A stretch of DNA of 51,935 nucleotides. It comes from Thermodesulfobacteriaceae bacterium. GTDB lineage: Bacteria; Desulfobacterota; Thermodesulfobacteria; Thermodesulfobacteriales; Thermodesulfatatoraceae. The DNA lies in NCBI GenBank assembly GCA_015494065.1, contig WGCA01000058.1, positions 1-51,935 of the forward strand, given 5' to 3'. A program made the position numbers and the translations under genes. Below the pieces are notes generated by a model. The model worked only from the letters and a program-made list of their open reading frames with translations. It had not been told where the DNA came from and ran no database searches. Position 1 is the stretch's first letter; each line of letters starts with the position of its first letter. Shown here piece by piece: positions 7,595-37,197 of this stretch.

Positions 7595-8764
7595 ATGTCA
7601 GAGTTCAAGGAAGCAATTTCAAGATCCTGGAAGAGTTTCGCCCTCTCTAACTGGTCCCCCTTGATGGGGGGGGTCATGTTAGCCCTTTTCTGTATTTTGT
7701 TAGAAGCCTGGTATCGGCCCTGGGGTATCGTAGGGGGGCTTAGAAACTGGGCTGACTGGTTCTTTTATCTGATAGGTTTTTATGAAGATGCTCCGCCCCA
7801 CCCGCTTGAGTTTTCATCTTCTATCTTAAATATCGGCTTTATTTGGGGCGCGGCCATCTCTGCTTTCCTGGCCCGGGAATTTGGTCTGCGTTTTCCGCCC
7901 AAGATCGAATACATAAAAGCCATAGTAGCTGGCATCTTGATGGGCATCGGTTCGGCGATGGCCATGGGTTGTAACGTGGGAGGCTTTTACGTTGCCTTGC
8001 ATAACCTGGCTGCCAACGGTTTGGCTATGGCAGTGGGGCTCGTCTTCGGGGTCATTGTGGGTATTAAGTACCTTTATTGGGAATTGGAACATTTCCCCAG
8101 CTCTGGAGGCTTTGAGATCAGCTTTCGCAAAATCGGTCCTTACATCGGCTTCCTTTTGTTGGTGGGACTGATTGTAGCTACCTACGCCTATTTTGGCAGC
8201 GAAGAGATCGAAGACGCTGAAACTCTGGGTGGGTGTCTGATCATTACCGCAGGCATCGGCTACATCATGCACCGGAGCCGTTTCTGCATGGTAAACGCCT
8301 TACGGGAACCATTTATGACCGGTGAAGCCTCCATGGGCAAGGCCCTGATGGTCAGCATCATCCTGGGGGCCGTAGGGATAGCCATCCTCAAATACCAAGA
8401 GATCAGACCGGAGATGATGTACGTAGTACCCACTTTTGGTCTAGGAGCCCTGGTGGGAGGTTTTATCTTCGGGGCCTCCATGGTAGTGGCTGGTGGGTGA
8501 GGGTCCGGCAGCCTTTGGCGGGTCGCCGAAGGACAGATTAAACTCTGGGTGGTGGCCATCTTCTTCGCCCTTTCCAATTCCATCGTGCGCCACTATTTTG
8601 CCGAATATGACGTTATTGAGGAGGGATACCTGGGCAAAGCCGTCTTCTTGCCCGAATATCTGGGCTACGGTGGCACCCTTTTCCTCATTACCTTGATTGC
8701 GGTGGTATGGTATGTAATCATTGACTGGAATGAGGAATCCAATAAGTTGGTCATTGAGATGTAA
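7595..8764 (+). CDS. yedE: YeeE/YedE-family sulfur transporter read through an in-frame TGA as selenocysteine
   Basis: Multi-spanning inner-membrane protein of the YeeE/YedE family, which imports thiosulfate or related sulfur/selenium species. The frame runs from ATG 7595 (TTAAGGAGG upstream) to TAA 8764, 389 residues, with one TGA at 8498-8500 (residue 302). Frame and homology continue without a break after it: GSGSLWRVAEGQ and then two more membrane helices. In relatives this position is the cysteine of a GGCGSG-like motif; the other conserved cysteines are present at 126 (AMGCNVGG) and 231 (RSRFCM). A strong hairpin with a GGU loop starts 11 bases after TGA. I read this as selenocysteine; a nonsense mutation or sequencing error is the alternative. 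The gene leads the tusA/dsrE cluster. Confidence 0.85.
8498..8532 (+). promoter_or_regulatory. UGA selenocysteine codon with SECIS-like hairpin
   Basis: TGA at 8498-8500 is followed by an 11-base spacer and a nine-pair stem: CCTTTGGCG (8512-8520) with CGCCGAAGG (8524-8532), one U-G wobble, closing a three-base GGT loop (8521-8523). Bacterial SECIS elements sit directly downstream of UGA and carry GGU in the apical loop about 16-20 or more bases away; here the distance is 20 bases. The hairpin is inside the reading frame, as required in bacteria for SelB binding. Confidence 0.8.
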
Positions 8765-8811: not shown

Positions 8812-9069
8812 ATGTCTGACATCAAAATTGCCCCGGAAGGAATCAAGCCTGACATGACCATTGATTGTAAAGGCCTTTCCTGTCCCATGCCCCTTTTAAA
8901 GACCAAGAAGGCCATCCAGAAGCTTAAGAGCGGCCAGATCTTGGAAGTCCTCGGGACTGATCCTGGTTCCCGGAACGATATCCCTGGCTGGTGTGAACGT
9001 GCGGGGCACGAGTACCTCGGAGAAAGGGAAGATTCCGGTTTTATGCGTTTTTATATCAAAAAAGGTTAA
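8812..9069 (+). CDS. tusA: TusA/SirA-family sulfur carrier protein
   Basis: Small cytoplasmic sulfur (or selenium) carrier. The 85 residues contain the family signature CKGLSCPMPLLKTKKAI, where the cysteine of CPxP (about residue 24) carries the persulfide. A second cysteine (WCERAGHE) lies near the C-terminus. An AAGGAGG stands ahead of the ATG. Family members next to YeeE/YedE transporters accept sulfur brought in by the transporter; here it lies 47 bases downstream of the putative selenocysteine YedE. Confidence 0.92.
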   Translation: MSDIKIAPEGIKPDMTIDCKGLSCPMPLLKTKKAIQKLKSGQILEVLGTDPGSRNDIPGWCERAGHEYLGEREDSGFMRFYIKKG

Positions 9070-9089: not shown

Positions 9090-9422
9090 ATGGCGAAAGA
9101 TCCGGACAAGCTGGGTATTTTTGTAACCGATCCCCAATATATGGGGCATCTAATGAAGATCGTGGAAGCCGCCCAAAGGGCGGGGAAAAAGGTAAAAATC
9201 TTTTTCACCTTTAAGGCCATCCACCTTACCAAACAGCCAGATTTTCCCAGACTGGTACAAATGATCCCAGAAGAAGACCTGGCCATCTGTGCTGATTCGT
9301 ACACCTGCGAAGGCTTTGACGTGGAAACGGACATCCCCGGTGGAATGACCCCCAAGCAGATGCGCACTCAGGCCTATCACGGTGAGATTTTAGATGAGTG
9401 TGGCAAGTATTTTGTCCTTTAA
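9090..9422 (+). CDS. DsrE-like sulfur-transfer protein
   Basis: A 110-residue soluble protein with a DsrE/DsrF-like fold pattern: GIFVTD at the start, the VKIFFTFKAIHL strand typical of DsrE-like proteins, and cysteines in LAICADSYTCEGF (about 70-76) and DECGKY near the end. Relatives relay sulfur between TusA and downstream enzymes in sulfur oxidation or disproportionation. A strong GGAGG precedes the ATG and spacing to its neighbours is short, so it is co-transcribed with yedE and tusA. Function by family and context; which cysteine carries sulfur is not certain. Confidence 0.8.
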   Translation: MAKDPDKLGIFVTDPQYMGHLMKIVEAAQRAGKKVKIFFTFKAIHLTKQPDFPRLVQMIPEEDLAICADSYTCEGFDVETDIPGGMTPKQMRTQAYHGEILDECGKYFVL

Positions 9423-9838: not shown

Positions 9839-10018
9839 ATGAAGTTGTTGCATGTTTACCGTAACGAACCAAACGAAGAAGTCAAAAAGTTGGTTCAGAT
9901 ATTGAACGAAGGCAACGAAGCCATGGAATTCAAGCTTTATGAAGCCAAAGAAGACGCAGACTACGATAAATTCATTCAGATGATCTTTGAAGCGGACAAA
10001 ACCATCAGCTGGTGGTAA
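9839..10018 (+). CDS. 59-residue conserved-position protein closing the sulfur cluster
   Basis: Not recognised by family. The frame encodes 59 residues, starting MKLLHVYRNEP and ending EADKTISWW, with a very good AGAGGAGG 8 bases before the ATG and a terminator directly after the stop. It is acidic, has no cysteine, and shows a beta-alpha-beta-like alternation. Its place as last gene of the yedE-tusA-dsrE cluster fits the second small hypothetical gene of such clusters. A non-cysteine partner such as a scaffold or regulator of the sulfur relay is possible, but this is inference. Confidence 0.7.
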   Translation: MKLLHVYRNEPNEEVKKLVQILNEGNEAMEFKLYEAKEDADYDKFIQMIFEADKTISWW

Positions 10019-10026
10019 ATAAAAAA

Positions 10027-10050
10027 GGGGGCCTATGGCCCCCTTAATTT
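10027..10050 (+). terminator. Rho-independent terminator of the sulfur cluster
   Basis: GGGGGCC (10027-10033) pairs with GGCCCCC (10037-10043) around TAT, followed by TTAATTTTATTT and preceded by a run of A. It stands nine bases after the stop of the 59-residue gene and also lies at the end of the opposing hpt unit, so it may act in both directions. Confidence 0.85.
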
Positions 10051-10184
10051 TATTTAGGCAAGTTGTTTAGGGTCTTGGACCACATAAAAAGCTTGAAAAG
10101 CAGGATAGCCAGCCCGATTCTTAGAACCCACATATACCAGGGACTGTTTTTGAAATAATCGATAACAAAACGTATAAAGCGCAT
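10050..10184 (-). CDS. 44-residue single-span membrane peptide coupled to hpt
   Basis: Not recognised. The ATG at 10184 lies one base after the hpt stop, giving 44 residues: a basic start (MRFIRFVIDYFK), one hydrophobic span (about residues 18-33, WYMWVLRIGLAILLF) and a short polar tail. The stop falls at the shared terminator. Tight coupling to hpt and a good membrane profile support a real gene; its brevity limits confidence. Confidence 0.5.
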   Translation of the reverse strand: MRFIRFVIDYFKNSPWYMWVLRIGLAILLFKLFMWSKTLNNLPK

Positions 10185-10746: not shown

Positions 10747-10990
10747 AACCCAACTATTATTAATGAGACATTTTTAGCCGACATGCTTAATCGCACTTGT
10801 TGTCATCATAAACCCCTGTTGGTCATCGCGACCCCCTGACACGTTTTTAAATGTGTCAGGGGGGTGGCAATCTCCAGATTGCTTCCCCCTGTCGTGATAA
10901 TTTAACCACCACAGGGGTCGCAATGACTGGGGGGGCGGATGCATATATGTAACGACGTCGACGATTTGATGACCTCATTAATAATGGGTT
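10747..10990. repeat. Nested palindromic intergenic element (MITE/REP-like)
   Basis: This fills most of the 382-base gene-free stretch between hpt and yebC (10708-11089). Ends are inverted repeats: AACCCAACTATTATTAATGAG (10747-10767) against CTCATTAATAATGGGTT (10974-10990). Inside, GTCATCGCGACCCC (10822-10835) is inverted at GGGGTCGCAATGAC (10914-10927). Within that lie a hairpin ACCCCCTGACAC/GTGTCAGGGGGGT (10831-10865) and a perfect GCAATCT-CC-AGATTGC (10867-10882). The GTCATTGCGA and GAAGCAATCT words resemble dispersed REP-like repeats of many bacteria. No open frame is present. Beyond the element, 10991-11089 shows only the yebC leader. Confidence 0.65.
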
Positions 10991-35246: not shown

Positions 35247-36568
35247 TAACCAAACACCCGCTCGAAAATAGTGTCTACGTGGCGCAGATAGTACTTGAGG
35301 TCAAAGAGCCTGGCCAACTCTTCTTCGGAGAGATACTTGGTAATCTCCGGGGCCTGCCGGACCACCTCGGGAAAGGATTTGTTTTCATCCTCCCATACCT
35401 CCATGGCCCGCCTTTGTACCAATGCATAGGCTTCCTGGCGGGGAAGCCCTTTTTCGGTGAGCGCCAGGAGGAGCGGCTGAGAGAAAATGAGCCCCCGCAA
35501 AAGATTGAGATTCCGTTTCATTCTTTCGGGGTAAACTATCAGCTTATCCAGCATCCGGGTCAATCTCTTGAGCATAAAGTCTGCAAGGGTGGTGGCGTCC
35601 GGCACGATTACCCTTTCTACCGAAGAGTGGCTGATGTCTCTTTCGTGCCAGAGGGCGTCGTTTTCCAGGGCCGGCATCAGATACCCTCGGACCAAACGGG
35701 CCAGGCCACAAAGATTTTCTGACAAAATGGGGTTCCTTTTATGGGGCATGGCCGAAGAACCCTTCTGCCCCTTGGCAAAAAACTCCTCTGCCTCTAACAC
35801 CTCGGTACGCTGGAGGTGACGTATCTCGGTGGCGATCTTTTCCACGGTACCGGCCAGGACCGCAAGGGAGGCCAGGTATTCGGCGTAACGGTCCCGCTGG
35901 ATCACCTGGTTAGAGACCGGAGCCGGTTTAAGCCCCATCTTTTCGCACACGTAGGTCTCCACCTCGGGCTCGATATGAGCAAAGGTACCCACCGCCCCGG
36001 ATAGCTTTCCGTAAGAGATGGTTTCCAGCGCCGCCTCCAAACGTCTCTTATTACGCCGCATCTCTTCGTACCAGAGGGCAAATTTCAGCCCAAAAGTTAT
36101 GGGCTCGGCGTGGATACCGTGCGTCCGTCCAATCATAACGGTGTCTTTATGTTCGAGGGCCCGGCGTTTTAAGACTTCAAGGAGCTCGTCTACGTCTTCG
36201 ATGATTATCTCCATGGCCCTCTTCATGAGCCAGGCCATGGCGGTATCCAGCATATCCGAGGAGGTCATCCCCAGATGGAGATAACGCCCTTCCGGACCGA
36301 TCAGGCGTTCCAGGTAAGTCAAGAAAGCGATGACATCGTGCCTGGTTTCCCGCTCGATCTCTTCTATGCGGGAAACGTCTTCGGCGGTAAACCCTTTTTC
36401 CAAAAAGGGTTCGGTCTTGGCCTTAATGACCTCCAGGGCCTGCCGGGGGACACGACCAAGCTTGGCCCAAGCCTCACAGGCCAGGACTTCCACCAACAAC
36501 CAGGCCCTCAATTTTTCTTCCGGGCTCCAGAGTCTGGCCATTACCTCGCGGGTGTATCTCGGGATCAT
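35246..36568 (-). CDS. purB: Adenylosuccinate lyase
   Basis: Catalyses two fumarate-releasing steps of purine synthesis. The 440 residues carry the superfamily signature GSSAMPHKRNP (about 272-282), plus MIGRTHGIHAEPITFG and LHLGMTSSDMLDTA blocks with the catalytic His and Ser regions. AGGAGG stands before ATG 36568. Full length, with mutT coupled downstream. Confidence 0.97.
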   Translation of the reverse strand: MIPRYTREVMARLWSPEEKLRAWLLVEVLACEAWAKLGRVPRQALEVIKAKTEPFLEKGFTAEDVSRIEEIERETRHDVIAFLTYLERLIGPEGRYLHLGMTSSDMLDTAMAWLMKRAMEIIIEDVDELLEVLKRRALEHKDTVMIGRTHGIHAEPITFGLKFALWYEEMRRNKRRLEAALETISYGKLSGAVGTFAHIEPEVETYVCEKMGLKPAPVSNQVIQRDRYAEYLASLAVLAGTVEKIATEIRHLQRTEVLEAEEFFAKGQKGSSAMPHKRNPILSENLCGLARLVRGYLMPALENDALWHERDISHSSVERVIVPDATTLADFMLKRLTRMLDKLIVYPERMKRNLNLLRGLIFSQPLLLALTEKGLPRQEAYALVQRRAMEVWEDENKSFPEVVRQAPEITKYLSEEELARLFDLKYYLRHVDTIFERVFG

Positions 36569-36678
36569 GTCATACCTCCTGCATTCAGGCTATGCGCCTT
36601 AATAAAATAACAGACCGTTTAAGACAAGCGCCTTAACACCAAAAACATTCTTTGATGAGGGAAAATATCAAGAATCAT

Positions 36679-37197
36679 TTAATGATCTTTGAGCCAAGAA
36701 AGGCCTACACCCCATAGAGCGCCCGCCAAATTCAGCCAAATATCCTTGAAATCCCCTACCCTATTGGGCAAAAGCGCTTGAACAATTTCATCCAATACCC
36801 CGACGGCAAAAACAAAGACCAGGGCCAGCCAGGAGGGCCAGGCAGAAAGCCGGCAAGCCCGCCTGCTCAAAATCCCCAAAATGGCGTACTCTATGAAATG
36901 TATGCGCTCTCCCGGTAGTTTTAAGAAAAAACTAGCCAGAGAAAGAATTATTATCGAAAGCACTATGGCCAAAGAGGTTGCAAGAAGAGAACTATTTTTA
37001 AAAAAGAAGTAAATACCCGAAAGAAAAAATATACTCAAACCAAGAAAGAGAGTTTCTAAACCGATCCTACCAAAATGGCGATATAACCGGCTTAATAAAG
37101 TAGGGGTAAACGGAAGAGAAAGATAAATTATCAGGACATATCCCCACACTACCAGCCAATAATTTGATAAAGAGGCCCTTTTTAAAGGGTGAACCAT
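36679..37197 (-). CDS. VanZ-like family membrane protein
   Basis: A 172-residue membrane protein with about five helices. The pattern HFIEYAILGILSRRA (about 99-113) and the C-terminal VLDEIVQALLPNRVGDFKDIWLN match the VanZ-like family, whose role is uncertain and which in one case affects teicoplanin tolerance. It stands alone, divergent from rpmH; 110 bases separate it from purB and show nothing I can name. Confidence 0.8.
   Translation of the reverse strand: MVHPLKRASLSNYWLVVWGYVLIIYLSLPFTPTLLSRLYRHFGRIGLETLFLGLSIFFLSGIYFFFKNSSLLATSLAIVLSIIILSLASFFLKLPGERIHFIEYAILGILSRRACRLSAWPSWLALVFVFAVGVLDEIVQALLPNRVGDFKDIWLNLAGALWGVGLSWLKDH

Follow-up and report, generated by a model that had tools for sequence, protein, structure and literature searches.

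The window analysed here is the whole stretch of 51,935 nucleotides. It carries an operon of the order yedE-tusA-dsrE-chp-chp (YTD), of which yedE is the first gene. The features that bear on this study, several of them numbered by their equivalents in Spirochaeta thermophila YeeE (StYeeE), are as follows.

7595..8764, + strand: yedE, 389 aa with predicted selenocysteine (Sec, U) at residue 302; PF04143 E 1e-48, PDB 6leo E 2e-26
7970..7972, + strand: Cys126 codon (GCNVGG), equivalent of StYeeE Cys293 and putative first relay cysteine, by profile alignment
8285..8287, + strand: Cys231 codon (HRSRFCMVN), equivalent of StYeeE Cys22 and putative third relay cysteine, on the YeeD/TusA side, by profile alignment
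8498..8500, + strand: in-frame TGA, codon 302 (predicted U302), at the GGCGSG cysteine, by homologue alignment
8512..8532, + strand: bacterial SECIS-type hairpin CCTTTGGCG-GGT-CGCCGAAGG, nine pairs, loop GGT at 8521-8523
8812..9069, + strand: tusA sulfurtransferase gene (CPMP motif), PF01206 E 1.2e-27
9090..9422, + strand: dsrE-like gene of the YTD cluster, by synteny with Thermosulfurimonas dismutans (94% identity); DsrE Pfam matches weak (PMC12998232, PMC13293266)
9442..9810, + strand: YTD cluster gene 3' of the dsrE-like gene, by synteny
9839..10018, + strand: conserved hypothetical protein of 59 aa, YTD cluster, by synteny and ORF; no Pfam match
10025..10045, + strand: intrinsic-terminator-like hairpin at the operon end

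The yedE frame extends from the ATG at 7595 to the TAA at 8762-8764, and reading through the TGA yields 389 residues, with 87 sense codons and the stop following it. Apart from the TGA at 8498-8500, neither a second internal stop nor a frameshift was found in the frame 7595-8764; both the position of this lone TGA and the continued coding in frame agree with a preliminary description of the locus. The product scored 166.9 bits against PF04143 (Sulf_transp), well over the gathering threshold of 27. Conventional gene prediction would end the gene at 8500 and YedE at 301 residues, so that surveys of YTD clusters may score YedE as truncated. The same prediction is what favours taking the UGA as a true stop, with either a functional 301-residue N-terminal product or a fresh pseudogene as the outcome.

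The homologues point elsewhere. In an alignment of YTD-type homologues, the columns of residue 302 and C126 contain Cys or TGA in 41 of 41 rows, and the C231 column contains Cys in 40 of 41; the alignment includes L064 on the wrong strand, and on its correct strand L064 has TGC at the 302 site. The TGA thus occupies the place of the GGCGSG-type cysteine, as had been proposed. Among 14 yedE loci of named genomes, 4 have TGA and 10 have TGT or TGC at this codon. A family-level search found the yedE TGA in five genomes (G000, G004, G007, G008, G009) and none in four (G003, G005, G006, G002). The residue 302 codon is TGT or TGC in the three other congeners and in every outgroup, so that sister species do align cysteine codons with the TGA, which is the comparison that the preliminary description had put forward. 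In the tree, the five Sec-302 forms make up a single clade (support 100/98) beside the three Cys congeners. Because all Sec forms group together and Cys is found in every outgroup, the simplest history would be a single change from an ancestral Cys to Sec at yedE 302 within the genus.

The region downstream of the TGA is under purifying selection, with a dN/dS of about 0.03-0.04 where estimable, similar to the region upstream; dS upstream of the TGA is about 2 or saturated in the three diverged Sec relatives. The region past the TGA is therefore conserved rather than decaying as in a pseudogene. The 87 post-TGA codons are as conserved as the rest of the gene across five lineages, no second stop or frameshift accompanies the TGA, and in each of the five the stop coincides precisely with an invariant cysteine and occurs nowhere else, which makes termination at this codon highly improbable. 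The assemblies with TGA are metagenome- or draft-level, which would leave room for a sequencing or assembly error in which TGC or TGT was read as TGA. However, where a misread codon should give way to TGC, TGT or TGG, the same TGA recurs in four further assemblies; the five differ in sequence, are monophyletic and share an identical hairpin, and the chance of an error is negligible. The window YedE shares 99% identity with its counterpart in a MAG labelled Thermodesulfatator atlanticus HyVt-533, and 85% with the T. autotrophicus protein. Therefore, the source bacterium is a Thermodesulfatator relative, a heat-loving sulfate reducer.

The genome containing the window (2.03 Mb in 67 contigs) encodes the machinery for Sec insertion. 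A search for selA, selB, selC (tRNA-Sec) and selD had been suggested, and all four were found: ARAGORN identified a tRNA-Sec with anticodon TCA (82.9 bits), and SelA (638 bits), SelB (383 bits) and SelD (389 bits) all scored above cut-off, selD itself having one in-frame TGA. SelB is encoded in the Cys congeners too, so the decoding system predates the use of Sec in yedE. TGA is the ordinary stop of 5 of the 20 genes in the window, so the code is not reassigned genome-wide.

Bacterial SECIS elements (bSECIS) are stem-loops with a G or GU in the apical loop, located about 16-37 nt past the UGA. The hairpin of the window agrees with this in spacing, in its apical loop and in the selection acting on it. 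It starts 11 nt past the TGA and its GGT lies 20 nt past the TGA, exactly the nine-pair geometry described earlier. Its sequence is identical in all five TGA homologues, and elsewhere the synonymous sites are near saturation. Degenerate codons identical across all five TGA forms number 6 of 6 in the hairpin and 50 of 306 in the rest of the gene (about 3e-5, hypergeometric), and codons 306-313, which constitute the hairpin, are the gene's longest stretch of identical codons among the five Sec forms. The folding energy is ordinary for the composition (z -0.98 against shuffles), and the case for the hairpin is therefore built on codon conservation. The LWRVAEG motif in itself favours pairing: 4.5% of its synonymous encodings give nine of nine pairs, 1.0% do so with at most one G-U pair, and 0.4% have the GGT loop in addition. 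By itself, the hairpin is modest support for Sec, and the constraint on it is the telling part. An Rfam scan of the window, which does not test for SECIS elements, returned one tRNA only.

Two of the Cys congeners (L045 and L046) also pair nine of nine at the SECIS position, three or four of the pairs being G-U, and Sec forms are therefore not alone in having the hairpin; this pairing is either a relic of a lost Sec or a predisposition brought about by the protein motif. The hairpin tabulation across homologues left out L072-L076 and L080.

Readthrough of the UGA by a suppressor inserting Cys or Trp instead of Sec would also give a full-length protein. The complete Sec machinery, the TGA/Cys pairing, the SECIS-type hairpin and the use of TGA as a normal stop elsewhere stand against it, and we give it almost no weight. 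Taken together, the Sec genes, the TGA/Cys alignment and the conserved post-TGA region uphold the initial view of this YedE as a selenoprotein, and on this sequence evidence Sec is almost certainly inserted at UGA 302.

We next place the predicted Sec in the known transport pathway. Profile alignment paired three residues with cysteines of StYeeE (6leo): U302 with Cys91, C231 with Cys22, and C126 with Cys293. In the second solved form, 6lep, the U302/Cys91 column holds Ala. In StYeeE, C293, C91 and C22 form a row through the membrane, spaced 8.6 and 6.7 A apart, and the YeeD cysteine is the fourth, giving the relay order C293-C91-C22-YeeD Cys (PMC11073785). In StTsuA, both Cys91 and Cys293 are essential (PMC11582611). 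The alignment of U302 on Cys91 indicates that Sec takes the place of the middle relay thiol, and all three equivalent residues (C231, U302 and C126) are either thiols or a predicted selenol. The preliminary description had spoken of a replaced conserved cysteine in the transport pathway, which the profile alignment now pins to Cys91 of StYeeE (PMC11582611, PMC11073785). An AlphaFold model built from 12 sequences reached a pLDDT of 45 and was unusable, so the relay geometry of the window YedE comes from alignment alone. By analogy with these homologues, the window YedE probably has a relay or transport role, and thiosulfate or another sulfane-sulfur species is its inferred substrate, the homologues being distant.

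The gene neighbourhood consists of sulfur-trafficking genes. The YTD cluster has been defined as yedE, tusA, a dsrE-like gene and two to three conserved hypothetical genes in synteny (PMC12998232), and this arrangement is present in the window, with the gene order seen in the sulfur disproportionator T. dismutans (L026), in the genome G172 and in most homologues with flanking sequence. The 59-aa protein encoded at 9839..10018 probably represents the third component of dsrEFH type II. The function of the cluster is disputed: it was put forward as a candidate marker of sulfur disproportionation (PMC12998232) and reinterpreted as yeeE-tusA-dsrEFH type II, of sulfur oxidation (PMC13293266). T. atlanticus AT1325 is recorded as S0-positive and as sulfite- and thiosulfate-negative (PMC12998232).

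Downstream of the operon, a short minus-strand ORF (44 aa, MRFIRFVIDYFKNSPWYMWVLRIGLAILL...) that encodes a single hydrophobic segment was observed at 10050-10184 of the window, between the YTD terminator and a phosphoribosyltransferase-like gene. Further on, the intergenic stretch 10831-10935, between the phosphoribosyltransferase-like and YebC-like genes, contains inverted repeats (CCCCCTGACACG...GTGTCAGGGGG and others close by) that look like a small repeat element.

A different function has to be considered, namely that the Sec protein imports or exports selenium compounds, as a transporter of the YedE/FdhT (seleno_YedE) type, in which Sec would tie expression to the selenium supply. The top NCBIfam match is NF033796 (selen_YedE_FdhT), collinear across most of YedE, and TIGR04112-type YedE is found together with selD (PMC5322559). 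However, the scores are far under the cut-offs (NF033796, 113 against 350 bits; TIGR04112, 47 against 200 bits), sel genes are absent from the operon, and tusA and dsrE-like neighbours accompany nearly all homologues with flanks. In addition, no tested transporter of Methanococcus, YedE included, was unequivocally tied to selenium species (PMC11097638). The low scores and the sulfur-trafficking neighbours weaken this alternative, which we consider unlikely, though less so than any of the alternatives to Sec insertion. The window YedE scored below the cut-offs of the TsuA equivalogs as well (NF052577, 104 against 400 bits; NF041049, 81 against 645 bits).

TGA at relay cysteines is found elsewhere in PF04143, in other lineages, which adds to the case for Sec in the window YedE. 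A close YTD-type YedE was present in 72 of 395 genomes of the phylum sample, and among these only G000, the genome of the window, and G172 had a TGA in the matched stretch. In G172 (L077 / L080, G172:C14:6122-7354, minus strand), one in-frame TGA occupies the Cys293 site (GGUNIGG); Cys is kept at the 302-equivalent site, the operon is the same YTD operon, and the genome has a SelB gene. A possible hairpin with an AGUU loop follows this TGA, the same stretch has a stronger alternative fold, and the case comprises one genome only. On balance we favour, with some reserve, the view that YTD-type YedE gained Sec independently at two relay sites, Cys91 in Thermodesulfatator relatives and Cys293 in G172, of another Desulfobacterota lineage, which would make part of the import for sulfur disproportionation or oxidation selenium-dependent.

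Half-length, PmpA-like PF04143 proteins also have TGA at the Cys293 site (D/GGUPSGHG) in seven genomes (L083, L084, L085, L086, L087, L088 and L090), all seven with SelB, and at most of these loci a plausible loop containing a G follows roughly 21 nt downstream. Plasmids searched with the PmpA-like Sec protein as query gave matches below 60% identity only. A TsuA-like protein of G206 (L081, G206:C31:13395-14282) has TGA at the Cys91 site, followed by a hairpin with the geometry of that in the window (+11, nine pairs, GGT loop at +20) in which several pairs differ on both sides. SelB was not found in the 100%-complete G206 assembly; either the contig is a contaminant or the gene is missing.

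The genome of the window has a second YedE system (L078, G000:C15, about 35973-37053), made up of two adjacent half-length PF04143 proteins that are PmpA/PmpB-like and without Sec, and a flavin/iron-sulfur reductase-like gene follows them.

The preliminary description had supposed that a Sec-containing YedE might be undescribed. This was not the case, as the family is already in selenoprotein tables: "YeeE/YedE, PF04143, GUxSG, WP_012471001.1" has stood among the predicted selenoproteins since 2022 or earlier (PMC9312934; PMC13188914). YeeE/YedE is not named in the main text of references 61 and 62 of the 2026 review. The word stem "selen" is absent from the YTD papers PMC12998232 and PMC13293266, "selenium" is absent from PMC9751629, and our literature search found no mention of Sec in a full-length YTD-type YedE or in a YTD operon. 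Sec in the YTD operon, and Sec at two alternative relay sites, thus seem to be undescribed in the papers searched.

We propose that yedE is a genuine selenoprotein gene of the YTD operon and that its product takes part in a Sec-dependent sulfur relay to TusA, an explanation that, as a whole, we hold with good confidence from sequence comparison. SelB and tRNA-Sec would decode UGA 302 as selenocysteine, aided by the hairpin 11 nt 3' of it. YedE would serve the YTD (yeeE-tusA-dsrEFH type II) operon as its transporter in the inner membrane. Thiosulfate or other sulfane-sulfur species may be handed from C126 at the entry via U302 in the middle to C231 at the exit, and sulfur would then pass to the TusA cysteine and on to DsrE-like carriers that may supply cytoplasmic sulfur oxidation or disproportionation. 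A selenolate is ionised at neutral pH and is both a better nucleophile and a better leaving group. In the middle of the relay, it would speed both binding and release of the sulfur ligand, a kinetic benefit that we infer from this chemistry.

Sec within a transporter channel, and not in the active site of a redox enzyme, is unusual. Natural Cys-to-Sec swaps at relay sites back the proposal that the contact with the substrate is chemical and not merely structural. If recruitment at two sites is true, natural Sec/Cys pairs would be available for probing the YeeE relay model. Moreover, the supply of selenium could limit how far these bacteria disproportionate or oxidise sulfur.

The YedE described here resembles several known systems. 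The tabulated YeeE/YedE selenoprotein belongs to the same Pfam family and has Sec at a GGC-type cysteine, and GUGSG of the window fits GUxSG; GUPSG of the half-length PmpA-like proteins (seven genomes) fits equally well, and the tabulated record may therefore mean the PmpA-like subfamily. YedE/FdhT and the TIGR04112 "seleno_YedE" share the PF04143 superfamily and a name associated with selenium, but they are linked to selenium metabolism via gene neighbourhood and not via Sec content. The YTD YedE of T. dismutans, Desulfolithobacter dissulfuricans and cable bacteria is encoded in the same yedE-tusA-dsrE-chp-chp operon; that of T. dismutans is 76% identical to the window YedE, but has Cys (TGT) at the 302 site. 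StYeeE/TsuA (PDB 6LEO, 6LEP, 8J4C, 8K1R) has homologous membrane halves, the three relay positions and an adjacent TusA-type partner in common with the window YedE, whereas the latter has its PF04143 halves in swapped order, is about 50 residues longer, carries a predicted Sec at the Cys91 site and is encoded in an operon with dsrE-like genes.
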